Assembly (NCBI GenBank): GCA_964019135.1
Contig: OZ025249.1
Span: 16,889,088-16,953,087, forward strand
DNA: 64,000 nt
Reading direction: 5' to 3'
From: Arenicola marina
Lineage: Eukaryota > Annelida > Polychaeta > Arenicolidae
Shown here piece after piece: positions 2,175 to 49,447 of the stretch; positions within the stretch are counted from its first letter, which is position 1; each line of letters starts with the position of its first letter. A model generated the notes under the pieces. That model saw only the letters and a program-made list of their open reading frames with translations, was not told the DNA's origin and did not search any database. Made by a program: the position numbers and the translations under genes.

Positions 2175-4090
2175 AATGGGAAAGTCAGCACCGAATGGGG
2201 AAGTCAGCACCAAATGGAGAAGTGTGTACAATATGGGGACATAAATTCCGATTGGGGGAGTGAGACCGCATAGGGAATTGAGCACCGAATAAAAAAGCGA
2301 GCATCGCATGGGGACGTGAGCACCGAATGAGGCAGTGAACAGGGAATGGGAAAATGGGCATGTAATGGGAATGTCAACTCCGAATGACGAAATCATCATC
2401 GAATGGAGAAGTGGGAACAATATGGAGAAGTAAGCCCGTACGGAATGGGGGAATGAACACCGCATGTGGAACGGAGCACCGGATGTGGAACTGCATGGGC
2501 ACCAACTTGGAAATTAAGCACCAAATATGGAATTGCATGAGCAACGAATGGGAAAGCGACCATCGGATGGGGAAGTGAGTAACGAATGGGAAGTAAGTAC
2601 CGAATATTGAAGGATGACCGATGGAGAAGTCTGCACCGATTGGGCGAGGGAGACCGAATGGGAAATCGAGCACTGCAAATTGAGCACCGAATGGGAAATT
2701 GAGCACCTAGTGGGGAAGTGAGCAATGAATGGGGAAGGGAGCAATGAGAAAGTGAGCACCGACTGGGGACGTGAGCACCGAATAGGAAATTGAGCACTGA
2801 ATGGGAAATTGAGCACCGAATGGGAAATTGAGCACCGAATGGGAAATTGAGCACTGAATGGGGAAGTGAGCACCGCATGGGGAAGTGCGCACCGAATGCG
2901 GAAGTGAGCAGCGAATGGAGAATGAGCACCAAATGGAGAAGTGAGCATTGAATGGGAAATTGAGCACTGAATGGGGAAGTGAGCAATGAATGGGGAAGTG
3001 AACAATGAATTGGGAAGTGAGCACCGCATGGGGAAGTGAGCACCGCATGGGGAAGTGAGCACCGAATGGGGAAGTCAGCACCGAATGGAGAATGAGCACC
3101 AAATGGAGAAGTGAGCATTGAATGGAGAAGTGAGCACTGAATGGGGAAGTGAGCATTGAATGGGGAAGTGAGCACTAAATGGGAAAGTGAGCATTGAATG
3201 GGGAAGTGAGCATTGAATGGGGAAGTGAGCACTGAATGGGGAAGTGAGCATTGAATGGGGAAGTGAGCACTGAATGGGGAAGTGAGCATTGAATGGGGAA
3301 GTGAGCACCGAATAGCGAAGTGAGCACCGAGTGGGGAAGTGAGCACCGAATGGGGAAGTGAGTAACGAAGGGGGAAGTGAGCACTGAATGGGGAAGTGAG
3401 CATTGAATGGGGAAGTGAGCACTGAATGGGGAAGTGAGCATTGAATGGGGAAGTGAGCACCGAATAGCGAAGTGAGCACTGAGTGGGGAAGTGAGCACCG
3501 GAAGGGGAAGTGAGCAACGAATGGGGAAGTGAGCAACGAATGGAGAAGTGAGCACCGACTGGGGAAGTCAGCACCGAATGGAGAATGAGCACCAAATGGA
3601 GAATGAGGACCAAATGGAGAAGTGAGCACCGAGTGGGGAAGTGAGCACCGAATGGGAAAGTGAGCAACGAATGGGGAAGTGAGCAATGAATTGGGAAGTC
3701 AGCAATGAATGGGGAAGTGAGCACCGACTGGGGAAGTCAGCACCGAATGGAGAATGAGCACCAAATGGAGAATGAGGACCAAATGGAGAAGTGAGCACCG
3801 AGTGGGGAAGTGAGCACCGAATGGGAAAGTGAGCAACGAATGGGGAAGTGAGCAATGAATTGGGAAGTCAGCAATGAATGGGGAAGTGAGAACCGAATGG
3901 GGAAGTGAGCACCGAATGGAGAATGAGCACTGAATGAAGAAGTGAGCGCTGAATGGGGAATTTAGCACCGAATGGGGAAGTGAGCACCGACTGGAGAAGT
4001 GAGCACCGAATGGGGAAGTGAACACCGACTGGAGAAGTGAGCACGGAATGGGGAAGTCAGCACCGAATGGGGAAGTCAGTACCGAATGGG
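2175..4090. repeat. 19-bp minisatellite, about 100 units
   Basis: Tandem repeat of a 19-bp unit close to GTGAGCACCGAATGGGGAA. The left third (about 2175-2700) is strongly diverged, while 2700-4090 is regular, with variants such as CATTGAAT, CACTGAAT and CACCGAAT. Because 19 is not a multiple of 3, translation gives a 19-residue period (57 bp = 3 units) on the minus strand. That explains the long, low-complexity open frames here, which are not genes. The array ends 270 bp before the receptor's start codon. Confidence 0.93.
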
Positions 4091-14169: not shown

Positions 14170-14610
14170 AGCATCGATCATGTCTTCAATCAAATGTATT
14201 CTGCCGTTTATTTGTACTAAAACGTCCTCATGGTCCTGTTGCGAACTGGATCGTAACGTCAATACATATGGGTTATATAAGGTGCAGCACTGTATTATTG
14301 GGTATGTTGGCTTTCACGCTTTAAAACACAGTGGAAAGGGATCGGTAGTCCTGACAGCTTCGGCATGTATACGGTTGGTATGATAAGCCATTTTATGTAT
14401 TAATTGGCACTGTACGACAGGTTAGAACTTCAAGCACGTATGCACGCTCTAGTGGTCAAAAGTATAATTAGAAATATGGTGTAAATATGTTGTAAATATA
14501 TATTATTGAATTTGGGTTTTACCGTATAGATTGTAGTATGGGTATGCAGAAGCTGCAAGATGACCAGAAATTCTAATTTGCTCGCTTCATAACGTACTGA
14601 ATATACAGAT
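14170..14610. other. Receptor 3' flank or UTR
   Basis: AT-rich DNA with no AATAAA. The next AATAAA on the plus strand is at 16399-16404, beyond the 33-bp array. The array may therefore be transcribed as part of the 3' UTR, or an unrecognised signal may be used here. Confidence 0.35.
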
Positions 14611-16040
14611 ACATGGTTCAGGTCGGGGGATGAGTCCCATCACACATGGTTCAGATCGGGGGATGAGTCCCATCACACATGGTTCAGGTCGGGGGATGAG
14701 TCCCATCACACATGATTCAGGTCGGGGGATGAGTCCCATCACACATGGTTCAGGTCGGGGGATGAGTCCCATCACACATGGTTCAGGTCGGGGGATGAGT
14801 CCCATCACACATGGTTCAGGTCGGGGGATGAGTCCCATCACACATGGTTCAGGTCGGGGGATGAGTCCCATCACACATGGTTCAGATCGGGGGATGAGTC
14901 CCATCACACATGGTTCAGGTCGGGGGATGAGTCCCATCACACATGGTTCAGGTCGGGGGATGAGTCCCATCACGCATGGTTCAGGGCGGGGGATGAGTCC
15001 CATCACACATGGTTCAGGTCGAGGGATGAGTCCCACCACATATGGTTCAGGTCGGGGGATGAGTCCCATCACACATGGTTCAGGTCGGGGGATGAGTCCC
15101 ATTACGCATGGTTCAGGTCGGGAGATGAGTCCCATCACACATGGTTCAGATCGGGGGATGAATCCCATCACGCATGGTTCAGGTCGGATGATGAGTCCCA
15201 TCACACATGGTTCAGATCGGGGGTTGAGTCCCACCACACATGGTTCAGGTCGGGGGATGAGTCCCATCACACAGGGTTCAGGTCGGGGGATGAGTCCCAC
15301 CACATATGGTTCAGGTCGGGGGATGAGTCCCATTACGCATGGTTCAGGTCGGGAGATGAGTCCCATCACACATGGTTCAGATCGGGGGATGAGTCCCACC
15401 ACGTATGGTTCAGGTCGGGGGATGAGTCCCATCACACATGGTTCAGATCGGGGGATGAGTCCCACCACATATGGTTCAGGTCGGGAGATGAGTCCCATCA
15501 CACATGGTTCAGGTCGGGGGATGAGTCCCATCACACATGGTTCATGTCGGGGGATGAGTCCCACCACATATGGTTTAGGTCGGGGGATGAGTCCCATCAC
15601 ACATGGTTCAGGTCGGGGGATGAGTCCCACCACATATGGTTTAGGTCGGGGGATGAGTCCCATCACACATGGTTCAGGTCGGGGGATGAGTCCCACCACA
15701 CATGGTTCAGGTCGGGGGATGAATCTCATCACACGTGGTTCAGGTCGGGGGATGAGTCCCACCACACATGGTTCAGGTCGGGGGATGAGTCCCATCACAC
15801 ATGGTTCAGGTCGGGGGATGAGTCCCATCACACATGGTTCAGGTCGGGGGATGAGTCCCATCACACATGGTTCAGGTCGGGGGATGAGTCCCATCACACA
15901 TGGTTCAGGTCGGGGGATGAGTCCCATCACACATGGTTCAGGTCGGGGGATGAGTCCCACCACACATGGTTCAGGTCGGGGGATGAGTCCCATCACACAT
16001 GGTTCAGGTCGGGGGATGAGTCCCATCACACATGGTTCAT
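14611..16040. repeat. 33-bp minisatellite, about 43 units
   Basis: A 33-bp unit spanning ACATGGTTCAGGTCGGGG then GATGAGTCCCATCAC, highly homogeneous with point variants (TATGG for CATGG, CACCAC for CATCAC, AGATCGG for AGGTCGG). No frame-changing indels accumulate. The unit lacks stops in several frames, giving open frames of up to about 519 codons with an 11-residue period. There is no leader, flanking exon or non-repetitive coding sequence, so it is not called a gene. Confidence 0.95.
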
Positions 16041-17568
16041 GTGGAGGACGAGTCACTTTACACAAGGCTAAATGTGGCACCCTAATTTACATGAGCATGA
16101 GTTATCGGAAACTGTTATTTGGCTTTACCAATTTCTCAAATATATTTTCCTCATCTGTGATATACGATTTTGCCCTTGGTATTTTTTGAATTAGTATGCA
16201 CTCACATGAATCTCGGTGGAATTCCAATGCAAGAAAATCGTGCTATGATGTAACATAATGTTTCGCTCGATGTTGTATAAGACTATATATAGCTAGTGGC
16301 GCAATGTATATCGTTTCTTTGTTTGCGACGTTGTCTCTGTTCCTCTCTGTAGTGACATGATTTAATTGTTCAGTAAATGCGACATTTGTACATTTCGGAA
16401 TAAATACGTACGTCATTTTACTCCTAGTCGATCCATGTCAATAATTTTCAGTGTAGTGGTTAACATTTACACCGTAAATGAATGAGAATTTGTAAACATC
16501 GATCAGATATAGGTCTATCGAGGGACTGTGCGGCGAAGGGAAACCACGTGGAGGGGACGGCGGCTTGTATATAATGCATTTTTACACTCGTTTCATTCAC
16601 GATAACCAATTTATGTACTTCGATGTATTGATATACGCCACATATCCTGGGGAACAGACAACGAGCAAGACCGTGGACATCTTAATTACTACCTGTTTCG
16701 CATCAAATGTTTCCCTTTGTACTTTGCCAGATTATAATATTTTTTTAGATTTCGAGAATTTCGAGAATTTCCGGAAGGTTAGAAAATGGTACTTAGATGA
16801 TGTAATTAAGCAGCATGATATGACCTTGTTTAATGTTTAATTTTTAATACATAGAGTACAAATATTCAGATCTTAAAACACGAAAACTATTTCGCACATA
16901 CGTTTAAGATACATCTAAATAATATATCTTTGACCTTCGGTTAATTGTTGTGATTTATTGTATGGAGCTATTGAGAATTATATACGTGGAACTTATTGAT
17001 ACTAAAAGTCTACAAGACACTGTCTATACTACAGAGGGATCGGATCGATCTCTAGGCCTGAGGCTTGTACATAGAAGCCCCAACACCCAAGTGCCCTGTC
17101 TCTCTGGATCTGAGGTATCTCTGGATCTGAGGTCTCTCTGGGTCTGAGTCCTCTCTGGATCTGGGCGGCTGCATGACTCCAGAACCGGAGAGCCGTACAG
17201 TAGAGAGGCCCGGAGTCATATGCAACTGCCCAGATCCAGAACCCTCCCGTCCCCCCCTCCCCCAACCCCCCAACCCCCCGCGGGAGGCACGCCCCAGGGA
17301 ACACGGGAAAGCGCGCGGATAAGGGCACCGGCCAGTCCCATGAACAACCGGCTCCTATCTTTTGACAGCCGCTGGCCTACGTTAACTAGTAAATGGTATC
17401 TAATTCAAAATACCACACTTCCACAGAAATTGACAATTATAGGCGCGGATCCAGGATGATGTTTAAAAGGGGAGAGAGTGGGTGGCGGAGGGATGTAGGC
17501 GTGTAGGTGTACCTTTGGGTTATTACAGAAATAGAGGGAACCTGTAAAAATGATGAAGGGATCCACAA
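16041..17568. other. Intergenic, with short repeats
   Basis: No exon recognised. Four imperfect 18-bp units of TCTCTGGATCTGAGG type lie at about 17098-17163. At 17442-17455 GGCGCGGATCCAGG is a GGATCC-family MITE end, followed by degraded sequence up to the next array. An AATAAA lies at 16399-16404. Confidence 0.4.
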
Positions 17569-19218
17569 CACAAGATGGCATTCATTTCGCTGTACCATCG
17601 CCACAAGATGGCAATCATTTCGCTGTACCATCGCCACAAGATGGCATTCATTTCGCTGTACCATCGCCGCAAGATGGCATTCATTTCACTGTACCATCGC
17701 CACAAGATGGCATTCATTTCGCTGTACCATCGCCACAAGATGGCATTCATTTCGCTGTACCATCGCTACAAGATGGCATTCGTTTCGCTGCACCATTGCC
17801 AAAAGATGGCATTCATTTCGCTGTACCATCGCCACAAGATGGCATTCATTTCGCTGTACCATCGCCACAAGATGGCATTTATTTCGCTGCTCCATCGCCA
17901 CAAGATGGCATTCCTTTCGCTGTACCATCGCCACAAAATCGCATTCATTTCGCTGTACCGTCGCCACAAGATGGCATTCATTTCGCTGTACCGTCGCCAC
18001 AAGATGGCATTTATTTCGCTGCCCCATCGCCACAAGATGGCATTCATTTCGCTGTACCATCGCCACAAGATGGCATTCATTTCGCTGTACCGTCGCCACA
18101 AGATGGCATTCATTTCGCTGTACCGTCGCCACAAGATGGCATTCATTTCGCTGTACCGTCGCCACAAGATGGCATTCATTTCGCTGTACCGTCGCCACAA
18201 GATGGCATTCATTTCGCTGCACCATCGCCACAAGATGGCATTCATTTCGCTGTACCATCGCCACAAGATGGCATTTATTTCGCTGCCCCATCGCCACAAG
18301 ATGGCATTCCTTTCGCTGTACCATCGCCACAAGATGGCATTCATTTCGCTGTACCGTCGCCACAAGATGGCATTCATTTCGCTGTACCGTCGCCACAAGA
18401 TGGCATTTATTTCGCTGCCCCATCGCCACAAGATGGCATTCATTTCGCTGTACCATCGCCACAAGATGGCATTCATTTCGCTGTACCGTCGCCACAAGAT
18501 GGCATTCATTTCGCTGTACCGTCGCCACAAGATGGCATTCATTTCGCTGCACCATCGCCACAAGATGGCATTCATTTCGTTGTACCATCGCCACAAGATG
18601 GCATTCATTTCGTTGTACCATCGCCACAAGATGACATTCATTTCGTTGTACCATCGCCACAAGATGGCATTCATTTCGCTGCACCATCGCCACAAGATGG
18701 CATTCATTTCGTTGTACCATCGCTACAAGATGACATTCATTTCGTTGTACCATCGCCACAAGATGGCATTCATTTCGTTGTACCATCGCCACAAGATGGC
18801 ATTCATTTCGTTGTACCATCGCCACAAGATGGCATTCATTTCGTTGTACCGTCGCCACAAGATGGCATTCATTTCGTTGTACCATCGCCACAAGATGGCA
18901 TTCATTTCGTTGTACCATCGCCACAGGATGACATTCATTTCGCTGCACCATCGCCACAAGATGGCATTCATTTCGTTGTACCATCGCCACAAGATGGCAT
19001 TCATTTCGTTGTACCATCGCCACAAGATGGCATTCATTTCGCTGTACCATCGCCACAAGATGTCATTCATTTCGTTGTACCACCGCCACAAGATGGCATT
19101 CATTTCGTTGTACCATCGCCACAGGATGACATTCATTTCGCTGTACCATCACCACAAGATGGCATTCATTTCGCTGTACCATCACCACAGGATGGCATTC
19201 ATTTCGCTGTACCATCTC
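17569..19218. repeat. 33-bp minisatellite, about 50 units, with repeated AAGATGGCATT
   Basis: The unit is CACAAGATGGCATTCATTT then CGCTGTACCATCGC (33 bp). The span of 1,650 bp equals 50 units. It shares no sequence with the other 33-bp array. Left units carry CGCTGTACC, and many right-hand units carry CGTTGTACC, showing patchwise homogenisation. Three plus frames and at least two minus frames stay open through the array because the unit lacks stops; these are not genes. The AAGATGGC core resembles a YY1 site. Confidence 0.95.
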
Positions 19219-20043
19219 CCAAACAGAGGCGTTCGGGCCCCGCCTTAATCGGCAGAGATGCTGCGTCACCCCACCCCACCCCACCCCACCCCACCCCACC
19301 TGCGTCTGCATGACCCGCTCTCTCCGGCATCCCATACCTGCCCCCTTGTTGAGGGGGACGGGGTGGGGAGGCCGGGGTGGGGGGTGCATGCTCCCGGGTT
19401 TGGCGAAAGGTAAGAAAAATAATGCATAAAAGTCGGCCGTTTGGCTGTGGTATTTTCATTGCGGAACACATAGTTTTGTTTTCGCCGTGTTCAGGCGGAA
19501 AGCGGAAGGTACGGCTTATCTGAAGGTTTACAGAAATGCTTAAGTTGTGCATTACTTGATGGTTTTTCATATATGTATCGGCATCGTCGCCAGACATGTG
19601 GAAAATGTTCTCCAGTGAGAAGCTCATCAAATAATTCTTATGTCATCCACAATCAACAACTCCTCGTTCATTATGCAGGTGGTTATAAGTCAATTATCTG
19701 TATTTATGCTTTGTTCCTATCTAATCTTTCCATCATATTAATTAATAAGATACCAGGCTCAGAAGCATCTTTTATGCATCTTAATTACGACATCCATTGG
19801 CCTTCTAATAGAGAATACTGTCTTGTACAAACCACATTATCGCCCACTAATGCCTTGGTCGAATATTCGCCTCGATATTACTATTAGCACGATCAGCAAA
19901 CGCTGGAAACAGTCTTCACTCTTATTTAATTTTGAACATAGTATTTAATGGAATGTTTTATCCTGTCAGAAAATATGTATACAGCTTGTCAGGTAGTCCT
20001 GCTAGCAAGCCACTGTGGCTACTGCCAACGGCATCTTGCTTCC
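19219..20043. other. Intergenic, no gene recognised
   Basis: Contains a CCCCA repeat at about 19271-19300 and GC-rich low-complexity DNA to 19400. No exon was recognised. This region and the next 3 kb are where the missing first exon of MED8 might lie. Confidence 0.35.
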
Positions 20044-29100: not shown

Positions 29101-31156
29101 TCAATGAAGATTATTGGACGAGCAAAATCCATTTCGATGAGCGAATCCATTTTTGTGCGTATAGCCGTTCGTTTGCTTCGGTGGAGGCTTGATGTGTGCC
29201 TCGCCCGCCTCGACCGTTTGCAGAACAAAGGTTTGGTAGAACCAAGCTCGTTCCACGCAACTCACCGTCTTTGACATCTCCATATCGACCTCCGAGTTCG
29301 ACCCGAAGGATTTGTAGTCGATTTGATCATTCGACACTGGGACGAATGTCCAATGGCAGATCCGAGCCCCGGGTTTGGCCTTAGAAAGCATGATTTCCAT
29401 GCAGTGAGCGTGACTTGACTGCGGGGTGAAGTCGAATATGTTTGACATATCTATGACATCAAACGAACTGGCGCTTTTCTCCAGTGCGCTGGTCAAATCG
29501 CCTTCTTGGAAGTTGATTCGGTCTACGTTTGATTTGAGATGATCAAAGTTCTCGTGCTGCAAATATTCCGGAAGTCCGTAGTCACCGGAAAGCTCTCCGG
29601 TCAAGACGTACTCCAGGTAGTAATTGTCGTGCGTAGGGATGTTGCGCATCACGTGACTGAGTCGCGAAAGGAAGTGATCTCCGACATTGACATTCGTTCT
29701 TTCATAGAAAGGGGTGCAGCGCCCGACGAGGACATCTCCAAAATACAACCTGCAGAGCATGCGCCAGGACAACGTGTCCCAGACGTCGTCATAGAAAGTC
29801 CTCCGCGCCTGCGCGTCGCGCATGGACAGCAGCTTGTGGACGGCGTCCTTGGAGTGAGCCAAAGGACGCACGGCCAGTCCGAACGACCGGAAGTACTGTT
29901 CGTATATTCCCGCGTGTATCAAGCCTCCTGCAATGACATCTACGTGAATGTCCCAGAATGCAATCAATCTGGCATCCAAGTGTGGTCTCAACAACTGCCG
30001 GTAGATGTCCGTCCTCTCGATGCCCTTGACGGCGTCCGGTCCCAGCCCGATGAGACAAGTGAATAGCTCGTATGTGAGATGCTTGATGGCGGCTTTCTTC
30101 AGCTCGGCCACGGCAATCTGGGCGGGAGAGAAGTCCACTGCCACCACCGCACGCGGGTTGTCCAAGAGCAGCGCCAGGGCGTTGTCACCCCCGGAGCACA
30201 CGCATACCACGTGATCCGTCTCCCGGATCTTGAGGGCCTGGCGCAGCGTCACAGAGTCTTCCCAGACCTGCACGTGTCATAAAAAGACGTAGCACGCTGA
30301 AATCGACCAATATAACGCCCAAAACCCTAATTCGATCACAGCATTGTTCGTATTTGCGTTCGTGTAGGGTTGCCTGGGACGACAACCTCTACAAAACTTA
30401 AGGCGCCTCCTAATAATAATCAGGCCAGCGGACCACGTGCTTTTAAAATGGCGCTTCCCATGACTATATATACACCTCATGGTCATATATACATGTACAT
30501 ATCGACACGTGACCCCACCTGTGAGTACGTGATGTGGGACGGCTCCAGACTGTCGTACATGGACTGGATGGCGTGTGCATCCGGTTTTCTCCATCCCAGC
30601 CATCGTCGTAACCGGAACACCCAGCCCCTGAATGCGCTACAATGACAGGAAACACACAACCACCCGGTTCAGACTCCTGCGCACAGCACATCTGAAACAA
30701 CTTTGTAAATACCGCCACAGCACGCAACATAAACCTTGCGGTGTAGTGGGTGTCGCCGATGCTATTCTCTCGGATACTTCAGGGATACGTTATTTTTTTA
30801 GGATGAATTCATAGCGATGATCATGGGAGGCCTGGTGGCAGTGTTTTGGTGATTTGTTAGTCGCAGCCAGATCCGCCTATGTATCAGTTCATGATCTATG
30901 ACTTCCGTCATGCGATATTTCGCGTGATGGACAACGTACATTCATTGCATATAGTCAACAGTAACTTCTAGTCATCAGGCAGATAGACACATACACTGAT
31001 ATACATTGAAATGATTAACTGACGCACCGTAACGTTATCTCTGAGCACAGCAATCGGTATTAACTACTAACAATTATCCAGTCCGTCTTACCACACTACG
31101 ATGACTTTCCATGTACGAAGGATGTCAAAGAAGTAAAGATTTCTCTGGCTCGCCAT
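29101..31156 (-). CDS. BtaA-like SAM:diacylglycerol 3-amino-3-carboxypropyltransferase (DUF3419)
   Basis: Three minus-strand exons: 31156-31092, 30636-30519 and 30267-29101 (1,350 nt, 449 residues plus TGA), with GT-AG junctions in phase. The family moves the 3-amino-3-carboxypropyl group of S-adenosylmethionine to diacylglycerol, giving diacylglyceryl-homoserine, the first step to betaine lipid (DGTS). Family landmarks in order: basic, aromatic N-terminus (FRLRRWLGWRK, 29-39), YSQVWED (59-65), SAM-binding VCSGGDNALALLL (84-96), VVAVDFSPAQIAVAELKKAA (102-121), IYRQLLRPHLDA, THDNYYLEYVLTGEL, LPEYLQHENFDHL, then FDVIDMSNIFDF and KPGARICHW. The last 35 or so residues are low-complexity (NGYTHKNGFAHRNGF). 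The exon 2/3 junction falls inside the YxQ|VWED motif and restores it exactly, which supports the model. No BtaB-type N-methyltransferase is fused to it or lies nearby. Acceptor specificity in animals is unknown. Confidence 0.93.
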
Positions 31157-37745: not shown

Positions 37746-38633
37746 AGCTGCTCACACCGCCTTTTATTACGTTATTAACTATTAAAAAAGTAACTGGATA
37801 TTTCGTTTAGTCTTGCTATAGTGTAGGGTAACCTTTTTTCTTTAGAAAGACATGAGAGGCTTGGCACCACAAAAATTGACACTTTACCCAGATGGGACTC
37901 GAATTGGTCAAATTTTAACGGAGTAGACAAGTCCAGCACTGAACAGTGTTTCACATTGCATCACTGGTGATTTAGTTACGAAAAGGGTTTTCAGGAGAAG
38001 TATTTTTTTTTACGAGGCTGACGATGTGAGAGAATCGACAAACTAAAATAATCGATTTTTATTCACGACAAATAATTGACATCGTTTCATATATGTGCAA
38101 AAATGAATAACCTGTTCAACTCTGTAAAATATGGTATAAATGCACCGTTTGCCGATGGACCGAACAGGGACGTGGCAGGGAGAAGATGGGAGGGTCAGTC
38201 TCCATATTAGTCCGGCTAGCCAGGTGCGTCTGGGCAAACCGATGTAAATAGCGTGGGCCGTGTGGACGGCTCCTGGGTCGGGTAACGCCGCCCGGCCCAT
38301 CTATTTATAGAACATATTTCGGGGAAGACGTTCCCGCTAACTCGCCGGCTCTCACCGATAGGGCTTCTGCGTACGGTGGTATATAAGTACAATGCAGAAC
38401 GGAGAAGTAGTAATTATATATATCGGAGCCGACAACAATAGACGGCGAAGTCGAGGAATCGTATCACATGGTGAAATGAAGGCCGCAATGGTAGCAAAGA
38501 AATTGCGGAAAATGTGGTATCGAACATATCGCCATGCAGACTCCCCCACAGGGTGACACCACTGCCACTGCTTTCACCGGCTTAGCCGAACACTTCCAAG
38601 ATCAATTAGGTCAAGGACAGGCCATTTGTAAAA
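37746..38633. other. Intergenic, nothing recognised
   Basis: No supported gene. The stretch leads into the 39-bp array. Confidence 0.35.
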
Positions 38634-39933
38634 CAAAGACATCGCTATTGCCGAGCGGACAAGTTGGCGTAGCGAAGACATCGCTATGGCTAAGCGGACA
38701 ATTTGGCGTAGCGAAGACATCGCTATGGCCGAGCGGACAAGTTGGCGTAGCGAAGACATCGCTATGGCCGAGCGGACAAGTTGGCATAGCGAAGACATCG
38801 CTATGGCTAAGCGGACAATTTGGCGAAGCGAAGACTCGCTATGGCTGAGCGGACAAGTTGGCGTAGCGAAGACATCGCTATGGCTAAGCGGACAAGTTGG
38901 CGTAGCGAAGACATCGCTATGGCCGAGCGGACAAGTTGGCGTAGCGAAGACATCGCTATGGCCGAGCGGACAAGTTGGCGTAGCGAAGACATCGCTATGG
39001 CCGAGCGGACAAGTTGGCGTAGCGAAGACATCGCTATGGCCGAGCGGACAAGTTGGCATAGCGAAGACATCGCTACGGCTCAGCGGACAATTTGGCGTAG
39101 CGAAGACATCGCTATGGCCGAGCGGACAAGTTGGCGTAGCGAAGACATCGCTATGGCCGAGCGGACAAGTTGGCGTAGCGAAGACATCGCTATGGCCGAG
39201 CGGACAAGTTGGCATAGCGAAGACATCGCTACGGCTCAGCGGACAATTTGGCGTAGCGAAGACATCGCTATGGCCGAGCGGACAAGTTGGCATAGCGAAG
39301 ACATCGCTACGGCTCAGCGGACAATTTGGCGTAGCGAAGACATCGCTATGGCCGAGCGGACAAGTTGGCGTAGCGAAGACATCGCTATGGCCGAGCGGAC
39401 AAGTTGGCGTAGCGAAGACATCGCTATGGCCGAGCGGACAAGTTGGCATAGCGAAGACATCGCTACGGCTCAGCGGACAATTTGGCGTAGCGAAGACATC
39501 GCTATGGCCGAGCGGACAAGTTGGCATAGCGAAGACATCGCTACGGCTCAGCGGACAATTTGGCGTAGCGAAGACATCGCTATGGCCGAGCGGACAAGTT
39601 GGCGTAGCGAAGACATCGCTATGGCCGAGCGGACAAGTTGGCGTAGCGAAGACATCGCTATGGCCGAGCGGACAAGTTGGCGTAGCGACGACATCGCTAT
39701 GGCCGAGCGGACAAGTTGGCGTAGCGAAGACATCGCTATGGCCGAGCGGACAAGTTGGCGTAGCGAAGACATCGCTACGGCTCAGCGGACAATTTGGCGT
39801 AGCGAAGACATCGCTACGGCTCAGCGGACAATTTGGCGTAGCGAAGACATCGCTATGGCTAAGCGGACAAGTTGGCGTAGCGAAGACATCGCTATGGCTG
39901 AACGGACAAATTGGCGCAGCGAAGACATCGCTG
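38634..39933. repeat. 39-bp minisatellite, about 33 units, with 6-unit higher-order repeat
   Basis: The unit is GCGAAGACATCGCTATGGCC followed by GAGCGGACAAGTTGGCGTA. Each unit contains AGCGA-AGACA-TCGCT, a short palindrome. A variant pair (GGCATAGCG... then CTACGGCTCAGCGGACAATTT) recurs in a fixed pattern of six units (234 bp) at about 39.1-39.33 and 39.33-39.56 kb. Lack of stops in the unit leaves long frames open on both strands (13-residue period); no gene is supported. Confidence 0.94.
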
Positions 39934-40660
39934 TGTCCAAAACGCCTTCTTGATTTTGAATTGTCTGAACTCATTGAACCTATGAGCCGCCGTAAGTGAC
40001 AATCTTCGGGATCGGGAATCCGGCGACTGGGGGCCCGGTATACGGGGGTGTCGGCCGCACATCAGCGAGTCCAGGGCAGCGTGTAAATAGGCGGGTAACG
40101 ACAGATTGAAGTACGGCCCATCGGCGCGGCTCAGTGCCAAGTCCAGGGGCAGTGCGACCCTGTTAGCGCAAATAAACGGATCTAGATAACCAGGTCATGC
40201 AGGTCGTATGGTTAGCAAGGTGAGACCTTGGCTATGCAAGTCAATAAGCGAGGTTGACATATTGACCCATATCTGAGGTAGACACGTCACTGGTGGATCC
40301 AGGGGCAGCCCCCTCACCACCCTCTTCACCCGCTCATACCATAGAGCCAGGAGGCCTTAATTTTTGCGCCATCCAAAATGAACCAACCACACCAGCATTC
40401 AGAGAGTTTATCCGATCGAAGTTGACCCCGCCCTCTTTTCACAAATCCGGCCTGGATCAGTCTTTGGCCGCGGGTTCGATCCAAACACGCATCTCGGCAA
40501 ATGGGCAACGACACACGAAATAATTCAAGCTCCACAGACTGATGACCGAGTCCTAATCAACAGTTCAACAGAATATAACGAGATTGCGTTGCCCGTAGGG
40601 TGAGATGACGTAAAATGTAAAACCCAGATTTTGTCTTCGGTCCACTACAATGACCTTGAT
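39934..40660. other. Intergenic with a GGATCC-type repeat fragment
   Basis: CTGGTGGATCCAGGGG at about 40290 resembles the ends of the GGATCC MITE family, with a possible partner GGCCTGGATCAG near 40450. No gene recognised. Confidence 0.35.
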
Positions 40661-43913: not shown

Positions 43914-45474
43914 TCCTTCGCTGTCTTCTAGATTTCTGACTTCTCGAAATCAGCCGGGCCTTGCCACACTCTTTATGTTGGTGGGGACCGTAGCGGGGCA
44001 TTGCCTGTTACTGGGCTTTGTCTTTCTAACTGGAAGTCTAGTAGCCTTTGGGAATGGGGATGTAGCGAATGAAGACACAATGTCGCTTGCCGCCTCCTTC
44101 TACAGAGAACTTCTCTCTGTAGAAGTTTTTGTTGACAAAGCTACCTCAATCAACGCTTCCGGCTCCCTCTCCCTTCTTCAAGCTCCCTGTGACGCACATC
44201 GTTTTCTTCTTGAAGCATATTCGTGATCATCAAATGCGTTCCGAGTCAGTGGACATATCATCCAGTTTGCCAAAGAGAATCGTTGCTGTTATAGTATACA
44301 TATTAATTGGATGTGGGTAAAACGGCCCACTAGGTCACTTTCCCCCTAAACAGCGTGGGTCATTTTGCCCCCGTTAGTAACCGTAATATTTGACCGTTGT
44401 ATGTAAAATACGGCGCAGTATATTCCGCATCTGAATTACGTTTGGGGCTTGACTTGGACTTATGTTTGGTCGTGTTAATTAATCAAAATTTCCCTCCAAG
44501 CTAGTATCTATCTACTGAGTTCTATTTGCTTCCCGTGTTTACCATAAATGGCCGCAGCCCAGAATCTTTTACTTTGGTAACGAAAGTCAGCTGTCTGCTT
44601 CAGCGCCCATATAGATTTTTTAAGGTATCACGTAACAAACAGGAACAAATATAAAACGCTTCAATACAGGTATCAGCACCGCAATTGCGCGATATTTTGG
44701 TTGCCCATTTGACCCCGACCCAAGGCCGGTCATTTTGCCCCATGTTCCCCTATGTTTGACATGATTTAACGTTACTCATACAGAAACTGTTCCTCTGATA
44801 AACTAGTTTTATCTTTTAAATGGAAATGACATATTTAGACCCTTATTGTATATAAATATATTATATGCAATGAATGAAATGGCATGCTGTAAGGGCTCGT
44901 TTTATTATAAGGGCTTTCTTGTGTATTAGCTTGGGGATTACTGCCATTGTTCGGCCTAAAATTTGCTAAAGGTGGGAAATGCACGAAGCATTTATATAAT
45001 TTGCTACTATGATGAAAATGAGAATGAATAATGGGGTCAAACGCCTACCCAATCATCTGGTAGGCATCTCACCCCACAATGAAGCGGGCGTTTTGCCCCA
45101 TTAGACAACAGTAACGTTTTAACAACAAACGAGTCATAATGTGAAATTGTAATCCAGGGATATACCGTTTATTCGTTTTTCATTTTGCTTCTAAACATTG
45201 CAATAGCAGAATTTACGCTTTTGCAATTTTCTACTTACCAAAGGGTAAAGCAGAAACACTCTTCAGCAATTCCTTTTCCCTTTACCGTTTGAAACATGAA
45301 AAAGTAAAAAAAGATGATAGGCGTCAGAAGCCTTTTGCCCTTTGTGAAAAGAGCAATACGAAAATAGGTAACACGTGCTGTTGTGTCGTATATGGGTGGG
45401 GAACCAGGGTAGTGAACAAGCCAAAAATCAGGCTTCTCAATCCAGCTCATCGTTTCAACACATACATGCAGATA

Positions 45475-48400
45475 TTCAACCCATGCCAGCACGAACTCAA
45501 ACCATTCAGGCGATAGGCCGGCCCTTGCAGGCACAAACTCAACCTTTGCAGGCACCAAATCAACCCTTGCAGGCACCAACTCAACCCTTGCAGGCACCAA
45601 CTCAATCCTTGCAGGCACCAACTCAACCCTTGCAGGCACCAACTCAACCCTTGCAGGCACCAACCCAACGCTTGCAGGCACCAACTCAATCCTTGCAGGC
45701 ACCAACTCAACCCTTGCAGGCACCAACTCAACCCTTGTAGGCACCAACTCAACCCTTGCAGGCACCAACTCAACCCTTGTAGGCACCAACTCAACCCTTG
45801 CAGGCACCAACTCAACCCTTGCAGGCACCAACTCAAACCCTTGCAGGCACCAACCCAACCCTTGCAGGCACCAACTCAACCCTTGCAGACACCAACTCAA
45901 CCCTTGCAGACACCAACTCAACCCTTGCAGGCACCAACTCAACCCTTGTAGACACCAACTCAACCCTTGCCGGCACCAACTCAACCCTTGTAGGCACCAA
46001 CTCAACCCTTGCCGGCACCAACTCAACCCTTGCAGGCACCAACTCAACCCTTGCAGGCACCAACTCAACCCTTGCAGGCACCAACTCAACCCTTGCAGGC
46101 ACCAACTCAACCCTTGCAGGCACCAACTCAACCCTTGCAGGCACCAACTCAACCATTGCAGGCACCAACTCAAACCCTTGCAGGCACCAACCCAACCCTT
46201 GCAGGCACCAACTCAACCCTTGCCGGCACCAACTCAACCCTTGCAGGCACCAACTCAACCATTGCAGGCACCAACTCAAACCCTTGCAGGCACCAACCCA
46301 ACCCTTGCAGGCACCAACTCAACCCTTGCAGGCACCAACTCAACCCTTGCAGGCACCAACTTAACCCTTGCAGGCACCAACTCTACCCTTGTAGGCACCA
46401 ACTCAACCCTCGCAGGCACCAACTCATCCCTTGCAGGGACCAACTCAACCCTTGCAGGCACTAACTCAATCCTTGCAAGCACCAACTCAACCCGTGCAGG
46501 CACCAACTCAACCCTTGCAGGCACCAACTTAACCCTTGCAGGCACCAACTCAACCCTTGCAGGCACCAACTCAACCCTTGCAGGCACCAACTCAACCCTT
46601 GCAGGCACCAACTCAACCCTTGCAGGCACCAACTCAACCCTTGCAGGCACCAACTTAACCCTTGCAGGCACCAACTCTACCCTTGCAGGCACCAACTCAA
46701 CCCTTGCAGGCACCAACTCAACCCTTGCAGGCACTAACTCAATCCTTGCAAGCACCAACTCAACCCGTGCAGGTCAAAACTCAACCCTTGCAGGCACCAA
46801 CTCAACCCTTGCAGGCACCAACTCAACCCTTGCAGGCACCAACTCAACCCTTGCAGGCACCAACTTAGCCCTTGCAGGCACCAACTCAACCCTTGCAGGC
46901 ACCAACTCAACCCTTGTAGGCACCAACTCAACCCTTGCAGGCACCAACTCAAACCCTTGCAGGCACCAACCCAACCCTTGCAGGCACCAACTCAACCCTT
47001 GCAGGCACCAACTCTACCCTTGTAGGCACCAACTCAACCCTTGCAGGCACCAACTCAACCCTTGTAGGCACCAACTCAACCCTTGCAGGCACCAACTCAA
47101 CCCTTGCAGGCACCAACTCAACCCTTGCAGGCACCAACTCTACCCTTGTAGGCACCAACTCAACCCTTGCCGGCACCAACTCAACCCTTGTAGGCACCAA
47201 CTCAACCCTTGCCGGCACCAACTCAACCCTTGCAGGCACCAACTCAACCCTTGCAGGCACCAACTCAACCCTTGCAGGCACCAACTCAACCCTTGCAGGC
47301 ACCAACTCAACCCTTGCAGGCACCAACTCAACCCTTGCAGGCACCAACTCAACCCTTGCAGGCACCAACCCTAACCCTTGCAGGCACTAACTCAATCCTT
47401 GCAAGCACCAACTCAACCCGTGCAGGCACCAACTCAACCCTTGCAGGCACCAACTTAACCCTTGCAGGCACCAACTCAACCCTTGCAGGCACCAACTCAA
47501 CCCTTGCAGGCACCAACTCAACCCTTGCAGGCACCAACTCAACCCTTGCAGGCACCAACTCAACCCTTGCAGGCACCAACTTAACCCTTGCAGGCACCAA
47601 CTCTACCCTTGCAGGCACCAACTCAACCCTTGCAGGCACCAACTCAACCCTTGCAGGCACTAACTCAATCCTTGCAAGCACCAACTCAACCCGTGCAGGT
47701 CAAAACTCAACCCTTGCAGGCACCAACTCAACCCTTGCAGGCACCAACTCAACCCTTGCAGGCACCAACTCAGCCCTTGCAGGCACCAACTCAACCCTTG
47801 CAGGCACCAACTCAACCCTTGTAGGCACCAACTCAACCCTTGCAGGCACCAACTCAAACCCTTGCAGGCACCAACCCAACCCTTGCAGGCACCAACTCAA
47901 CCCTTGCAGGCACCAACTCAACCCTTGCAGGCACCAACTTAACCCTTGCAGGCACCAACTCAACCCTTGTAGGCACCAACTCAACCCTTGCAGGCACCAA
48001 CTCAACCCTTGCAGGGGACCAACTCAACCCTTGCAGGCACCAACTCAACCCTTGCAGGCACCAACTCTACCCTTGTAGGCACCAACTCAACCCTTGCAGG
48101 CACCAACTCAACCCTTGTAGGCACCAACTCAACCCTTGCAGGCACCAACTCAACCCTTGCAGGCACCAACTCAACCCTTGCAGACACCAACTCTACCCTT
48201 GTAGGCACCAACTCAACCCTTGCAGGCACCAACTCAACCCTTGTAGGCACCAACTCAACCCTTGCAGGCACCAACTCAACCCTTGCAGGCACCAACTCAA
48301 CCCTTGCAGGCACCAACTCTACCCTTGTAGGCACCAACTCAACCCTTGCAGGCACCAACTCAACCCTTGTAGGCACCAACTCAACCCTTGCAGGCACCAA

Positions 48401-48749
48401 CTCAACCCTTGCAGGCACCAACTCTACCCTTGCAGGCACCAACTCAACCCTTGTAGGCACCAAATCAACCCTTGTAGGCACCAACTCAACCCGTGCAGGC
48501 ACCAACTCAACCCTTGTAGGCACCAACTCAACCCTTGTCGGCACCAACTCAACCCTTGCAGGCACCAACTCAACCCTTGCAGGCACCAACTCAAACCCTT
48601 GCAGGCACCAACTCAACCCTTGCAGGCACCAACCCAACCCTTGCAGGCACCAACTCAACCCTTGCAGGCACCAACTCAACCCTTGCAGGCACCAACTCAA
48701 CCCTTGCAGACACCAACTCAACCCTTGCAGGCACCAACTCACACTCACC
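45475..48749 (+). repeat. 21-bp minisatellite, about 156 units, with 926-bp higher-order duplication
   Basis: The unit is CCCTTGCAGGCACCAACTCAA. At 3.27 kb it is the largest array here. Variant markers repeat at a fixed offset: GCACTAACTCAATCC at 46458 and 46731 recurs at 47384 and 47657, and AGGTCAAAACTC at 46771 recurs at 47697, all 926 bp apart. A block of about 44 units was therefore duplicated. Frames stay open for up to about 400 codons with a 7-residue period on both strands; no gene is supported. Confidence 0.96.
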
Positions 48750-49447
48750 TCCTCCCAGATTTCCCTTCCCCATCGTCCTGGATCCGCCCTTGTACCATAT
48801 TTATATATATGCGAACATAATTTGTTAAATATAAGATGTAAATATAAGTAAAAAAGGGTATTATTTGACATACATAATGATAACGCAGATCCAAGAACTT
48901 GGCAGGGTGTGTGTGTGGACGCGGGGAGGGGATGGGGGAGGGAGACTCGTAAAAGGATTGGAAATGGTATTGCGGCTGTAAAGGGGCTGGGGCTTTACGG
49001 TCTGCAGCCACAGATCCACACTGTGTATTGCGATATATGACGGGCATATGAAAAGTACCACTTCTAATTACATCGCACGCCCATTGTCACGTCGGTTCCA
49101 AGGCAATTTCTTGCTAGTTCATTGAAGAGCGGACGTTCGACAAGTCCTTGGAGCAAGCTACAGAGAGTGCCGATGCCCCTGTTGAGCTGGATACTCGGCC
49201 AGTTGCACCGGTTGTGCTGCCAGGCGGCTGGTAACCTCGGACCTTATGACACCATTACACAAATAGGATGAACTATCTTGAGAGTAAGTGTTCGCAAAGT
49301 CATCAGGCTCCCACCCATACCATGCCACGCATACATCATATCACCAGCATAGGACTATAGGTCAATAAGGTAATTAATCATATGAATCCCCCCCCCCCAC
49401 CCCACCTACCTACCCATCTTCGAATAAACAATCAGCCACACAATTCT
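48750..49447. other. Flank between the 21-bp array and the zinc-finger gene
   Basis: CCTGGATCCGCCCTTG at 48779-48794, a GGATCC-family MITE end, lies 30 bp after the array. Otherwise no feature. The 3' UTR of the minus-strand zinc-finger gene should be here, but no clear AATAAA was found on that strand. Confidence 0.4.

Follow-up and report, generated by a model that had tools for sequence, protein, structure and literature searches.

A resident DUF3419 gene in the genome of Arenicola marina with probable affinity to a bacterial branch of the family separate from BtaA

Gene structure and residence in the animal genome

The window, that is the whole stretch of the Arenicola marina genome that was analysed (64 kb), carries on its minus strand (31156-29101) a DUF3419 gene in which GT-AG splicing of three exons gives 1350 nt and a protein of 449 aa (Table 1). 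The Pfam model PF11899 (DUF3419) matches residues 56-410 of this protein at 202 bits (E 1.9e-59), above its gathering cut-off of 28.2 bits, and the complete three-exon gene put forward in the original prediction is confirmed. The open frame of exon 3 extends over 391 codons from stop to stop and exceeds chance expectation: when the bases of the surrounding 6 kb were shuffled 200 times, the longest run without a stop reached 204 codons. The codon-position GC of the joined frame is 0.54/0.39/0.68. Of the two introns proposed earlier, the one that splits the key motif finds support in homology: the Q|VWED splice junction is supported because Tyr59, encoded by exon 2, is kept in 35/35 BtaB-linked BtaA proteins, a set retrieved without that motif. 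Tyr59 is present at 78/80 and Gln61 at 76/80 clade-C loci (best 80 of 231 relatives; see below), counts which are partly circular because both residues sit in the retrieval pattern. Exon 1 is the least certain of the three, being predicted from its splice sites and start context in a region that no relative covers.

Table 1. Positions of the DUF3419 gene parts and of repeat-like open stretches in the window.
Feature	Position	Strand	Description
Exon 1	31092-31156	-	65 nt; ATG 31156-31154; 21 codons + 2 nt; donor GTAAGA
Intron 1	30637-31091	-	455 nt; phase 2
Exon 2	30519-30636	-	118 nt; ends ...SHITYSQ; holds conserved Tyr59 and Gln61
Intron 2	30268-30518	-	251 nt; phase 0; falls within YSQ|VWED
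Exon 3	29101-30267	-	1167 nt; from VWED to stop TGA
Exon 3 content	29101-30267	-	SAM-binding fold (GGDNALALLL, AVDFSPAQ), helical insertion, low-confidence C-terminal tail
Open stretch	2396-3736		long, open in several frames
Open stretch	14564-16189		long, open in several frames
Open stretch	17507-19313		long, open in several frames
Open stretch	38574-40061		long, open in several frames
Open stretch	45235-48851		long, open in several frames

The gene is intact and resident in the animal. It is the one PF11899 match found in the 867-Mb genome and lies on a contig of 61.5 Mb; a Tc1-type transposase and a C2H2 zinc-finger gene occur elsewhere in the window, and 37 Wnt exon matches were found in the same genome; the large contig, the Wnt-bearing genome and the animal elements argue against a bacterial contaminant, as had been proposed from the introns. 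The translations of five other long open stretches in the window (Table 1) consist of short repeats, and these stretches resemble minisatellite arrays, not genes.

An AlphaFold model of exon 3 (pLDDT 87.8, pTM 0.87) predicts the fold of a SAM-dependent transferase that carries a large helical insertion. Structures matched by this model in Foldseek were mostly methyltransferases, the best being a phosphoethanolamine N-methyltransferase (E 8.1e-5, TM 0.19), together with a weaker match to nicotianamine synthase (MtNAS; E 1.2e-3, TM 0.19). By sequence, no BtaA relative was found in the PDB, where a BtaA query itself gave none; the animal N-terminus matched 6ar7 over 39 residues (E 2.8e-4), and the clade-C profile gave a weak match to MJ0883 (2yx1, E 0.0044).

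Relationship to clade C and to BtaA

BtaA is the S-adenosylmethionine:diacylglycerol 3-amino-3-carboxypropyl transferase. In a tblastn search of plasmids, a Roseinatronobacter protein matched the animal protein better (E 1e-37) than did BtaB-neighboured BtaA from Shinella (3e-16) and Rhizobium leguminosarum (2e-13). Clade C, as used here, is the best 80 of 231 relatives from a pattern scan of a prokaryote genome collection, the patterns being drawn from the animal protein and one Roseinatronobacter protein, so that retrieval defines the clade. Over the domain, the animal protein is 28-35% identical to its aligned clade-C relatives, and 20 columns are invariant across it and 43 bacterial clade-C sequences. 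The BtaA set comprises 35 DUF3419 proteins whose own locus also matches the BtaB profile, out of 36 such BtaB-linked loci (L098 was filtered out); they come from planctomycetes, alphaproteobacteria and plasmids. L158 and L159, which repeat L108 and L131, and L161, with a BtaB match 4 kb away, were left out before this list was drawn up. Stop codons fell inside the extended frames at five loci. Three scans of viral contigs and a search of phage records found no relatives; among viral structures, the DUF3419 fold was matched (E 4.5e-13) by a Yasminevirus protein (A0A5K0UB36) of 632 aa, a size compatible with a fused Bta1. Rhizobial plasmids (L003, L005, L008) carry a third DUF3419 branch, in which the WED motif is without its Trp, and the L003 gene comes after annotated ketoacyl-ACP synthase III, MBL-fold protein and CoF synthetase genes.

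The animal protein scored 294 bits against the profile of the 80 clade-C sequences (best 80 of 231), 282 bits against one of 20 random members with L009 excluded, 251 and 233 bits against two of 10 members each, and 246 bits against one of six lone clade-C-like proteins. Scores were 110 bits with 14 alpha-type BtaA sequences, 130 bits with 21 of planctomycete type and 134 bits with rhizobial branch B (four sequences), the clade-C profiles being 103-185 bits better than those of BtaA, depending on the sets compared. Of the 19 columns that are diagnostic between clade C and BtaA at a 75% level in each set, the animal protein has the clade-C state in eight, the BtaA state in three (305, 340 and 401) and neither in eight. 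At positions 89, 146, 184, 216, 244, 248, 336, 339, 367 and 404 its residue is the one most frequent in clade C and differs from the one most frequent in BtaA; the last of these positions falls inside a clade-C retrieval pattern. The clade-C signature (D/E89, R146, E184, R244, F248, S336, F339, W367 and F404), each state of which occurs at 78 or more of the 80 loci (best 80 of 231), reads D, R, E, R, F, S, F, W and F in the animal; at residue 89, where it has D, C is found in 35/35 BtaB-linked BtaA proteins and D or E in 78/80 of clade C (best 80 of 231). Further residues fixed in the 35 BtaA proteins besides C89, namely G184, Q216, Q248, L336 and R367, are E, R, F, S and W in the animal protein, and at 244 its R stands against V/I in BtaA. 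That the motifs originally quoted identify BtaA is not supported; they are either family-wide (WED) or in their clade-C version (GGDN, W367, E184). The main ground for caution on activity lies at residue 337, which is Asp in 79/80 clade-C proteins (best 80 of 231) and in 35/35 BtaA proteins: because Asn replaces this near-invariant residue in the animal, its activity may differ or be reduced. Asn337 is likewise found in L076, a bacterial clade-C protein inside the cassette described below.

Three trees were built from the animal protein and bacterial relatives: a FastTree tree with 131 rows, from which short rows and repeat fetches had been excluded, an IQ-TREE of 65 hand-picked rows, and an IQ-TREE of 53 rows, obtained from the 65 by removing 12 mostly long-branched or divergent ones, a removal which raised support for the clade-C reading. 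The animal protein fell outside the BtaA set in all three. The forks beside it are weak in the 131-row tree (0.41, 0.89); in the 53-row tree, it pairs with a Neomarinimicrobiota protein (L009; 94/77) within a 32-row set (100/98), BtaA forms a separate set (100/100), and no branch other than that of the animal protein is flagged as long (2.03). Forcing the animal protein together with BtaA cost 29.7 log units in the 53-row tree (AU p 0.058) and 17.2 in the 65-row tree (AU p 0.259), and the placement outside BtaA is thus favoured, not proven. Beside L009, the closest bacterial relative in the 53-row tree, lie genes for an AurF-type N-oxygenase and an MMPL-type transporter (L009:5764-9977).

Bacterial gene neighbourhoods and the search for partners

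At 74 of the 80 clade-C loci (best 80 of 231), spread over 11 phyla, three or more members of a single cassette are present. The cassette consists of UbiA, a PEP-synthase-like protein, DUF3419, a membrane protein suggestive of CDP-DAG synthetase, GNAT, an AMP-binding ligase and often HMG-CoA reductase, and its members carry the Pfam/NCBIfam names UbiA, PPDK_N/PEP-utiliser, GNAT, HMG-CoA reductase and AMP-binding. Among the 80 loci (best 80 of 231), the membrane protein and the PEP-synthase-like protein were each found at 75, UbiA at 71, GNAT at 70, the AMP-binding ligase at 69 and HMG-CoA reductase at 37. The sequences behind the cassette profiles come from neighbours at the same 80 loci (best 80 of 231); one neighbour table lost 7/80 loci, where no core frame was picked, and the counts given here use all 80 and another method. 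The examples of the membrane protein that were scanned had no Pfam match, and one model (pLDDT 93.7) had a CDP-DAG synthetase as its nearest Foldseek structure (E 0.029), a likeness that is suggestive only.

A BtaB-profile match was found near clade-C genes at 0/80 loci (best 80 of 231). In the control, the same kind of match was obtained at 32/38 loci (L108-L145), a range which takes in L134-L136, outside the BtaA clade, and L137-L145, retrieved with a BtaA query. Lone clade-C-like genes of planctomycetes and of a Trueperaceae genome lie near genes of the male-sterility/fatty-acyl-reductase or diacylglycerol-kinase type. For the individual loci L154, L155, L156, L157, L161 and L163, the neighbours are NAD_binding_4 (male-sterility type), diacylglycerol-kinase-type or PLP-decarboxylase genes, and at L161 the BtaB profile is also matched weakly (31 bits) at a distance of about 4 kb. 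Taken together, clade-C gene neighbourhoods suggest lipid chemistry, and the 11-phylum cassette seems to be a pathway for lipids or prenyl-lipids that has not been described; among the matches listed in the open-licence PubMed Central literature, there was no description of the cassette and no report of an animal DUF3419 gene.

The prediction that no BtaB is fused to the animal gene or adjacent to it stands, the protein having a single DUF3419 domain and no methyltransferase domain, and two genome-wide BtaB searches, with alpha-type and planctomycete-type queries, having placed no match in the window. As to a BtaB elsewhere in the genome, which it had been suggested to look for, these searches gave no clear BtaB and only weak SAM-fold matches, the best at E 8.6e-6 over 111 aa in one search and 3.8e-5 in the other, with 23-31% identity over about 110-130 aa. 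One of the 17 weak matches is on contig C9 and the other 16 are in one tandem array on contig C3; none of them is put forward as BtaB, the three that were scanned (two from the array and the one on C9) matching generic methyltransferase Pfam models. The array itself (C3 53193051-53373021; L090-L096) contains at least 10 class I methyltransferase exons, which are 27-31% identical to BtaB across the SAM fold alone. Searches for cassette partners in the animal genome covered the membrane protein, UbiA, GNAT and PPDK_N and had weak power because of introns. Queries with single membrane protein, UbiA and GNAT sequences, which could match exons only and were run with no positive control, found none, and PPDK_N gave one marginal match of 27.3 bits (cut-off 27), which is interrupted by stops. 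The absence of BtaB and of cassette partners from the animal genome is therefore provisional.

Possible function, origin and comparison with known systems

Residues, profile scores, trees and the operon context of relatives point, for the animal protein, to clade C, a branch distinct from BtaA. Of the earlier designation as a BtaA-like enzyme, membership of the DUF3419 family holds and the BtaA label is not supported. By a modest balance of probability, the animal gene encodes a class I SAM-dependent DUF3419 transferase of clade C which probably transfers an aminocarboxypropyl group to a lipid acceptor outside the BtaA route; to our knowledge, no clade-C protein has a tested activity. SAM would be bound at GGDN/VDFS, and the group transferred would most likely be 3-amino-3-carboxypropyl, by analogy with BtaA. 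The group would go to a hydroxyl on a membrane lipid or prenyl-lipid, which the large helical insertion would keep in place. The animal enzyme would work without the bacterial partners, so that one would expect as product either an amino-carboxypropyl ether lipid without methylation or an intermediate that animal enzymes of other kinds take further, instead of the DGTS that a BtaA-BtaB pair makes. The gene may be of bacterial origin, because the animal protein branches among bacterial clade-C proteins, beside the Neomarinimicrobiota sequence, in a tree whose other members are all bacterial. The bolder proposal, that the animal uses a lone enzyme from a widespread, apparently uncharacterised bacterial lipid cassette for an aminocarboxypropyl (homoserine-type) ether lipid not known from animals and separate from DGTS, is tentative and has distinctly less to be said for it.

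A serious possibility, if a somewhat doubtful one, is that the gene is an old eukaryotic one, vertically inherited and present in many animals as DUF3419, a history compatible with the functional readings. The introns and the long branch fit a long residence, whereas the legend of a Bta1 tree (PMC10685587) names no animals and a passage of that paper describes eukaryotic Bta1 as a BtaA-BtaB fusion, unlike the animal gene. It is unlikely that the protein is a divergent BtaA which converts diacylglycerol and SAM to diacylglyceryl-homoserine, with an unrelated animal N-methyltransferase completing DGTS. The shared Pfam family, both AU tests and the class I methyltransferase array on C3 (53.19-53.37 Mb) would agree with it, as would the use of DUF3419 as a DGTS marker in algae, where 20/21 DUF3419-positive strains had DGTS according to a passage of PMC6642084, and the measurement of DGTS in copepods, as reported in part of PMC10744631. 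Against this reading stand the clade-C residues at key sites, the tree position, the profile scores and the weakness of the BtaB matches, and a review (PMC8708635) attributes the betaine lipids present in sea slugs and symbiotic cnidarians to photosynthetic organisms or symbionts. The tree of DUF3419 homologues called for in the original prediction was run on bacterial relatives, and synthesis of DGTS or DGHS by the animal protein is considered unlikely rather than excluded because the AU test against a grouping with BtaA was borderline (0.058) or not significant (0.259). Also rather improbable is a SAM-binding protein with changed or lost transferase chemistry, such as a methyltransferase or a regulatory protein: Asn337 and Glu400, each at a near-invariant Asp, the long branch and the mostly methyltransferase structural matches are consistent with it, but the 20 invariant columns, the confidently predicted fold and the occurrence of Asn337 in a cassette protein argue the other way. 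That the gene is a contaminant, an assembly artefact or a pseudogene, as its single copy and the bacterial nature of the relatives found might suggest, is extremely improbable and was rejected in view of the large contig, the Wnt exons, the animal elements in the window, the two introns, the intact frame and the codon-position GC.

If the favoured reading, that of a clade-C lipid transferase, is correct, animals own a lipid-modifying SAM transferase without a described substrate. The likely enzyme would belong to a different, uncharacterised DUF3419 branch. A DUF3419 match alone would, it is suggested, be no marker of betaine-lipid synthesis, because 0/80 clade-C loci have a BtaB match and 74/80 carry another cassette (best 80 of 231), and the product of the 11-phylum cassette can now be sought.

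Among known systems, nicotianamine synthase, an aminocarboxypropyl transferase, shares the SAM fold and matches the exon 3 model (E 1.2e-3), yet it was absent among the PDB sequence matches and its TM-score is low (0.19). Bta1, the bifunctional DGTS synthase of algae, fungi and choanoflagellates, is like the animal protein in placing a DUF3419 domain in a eukaryote and differs in its methyltransferase domain, a comparison made from the description of the fusion in a passage of PMC10685587. Bacterial BtaA shares with the animal protein the Pfam domain and, in 35/35 proteins, the WED motif, Gly88/Asn90, Asp106, Asn276 and Tyr405; it differs at residues 89, 184, 216, 244, 248, 336 and 367, in its BtaB partner, of which the animal has no clear counterpart, and in the lower scores obtained with its profiles. 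The clade-C cassette proteins, such as that of Roseinatronobacter sp. S2 (WP_277807337.1), differ from the animal protein in its solitary gene, its Asn at 337 and its N-terminal and C-terminal extensions, and resemble it in sequence identity (28-35%), in the residue signature and in giving the highest profile scores.
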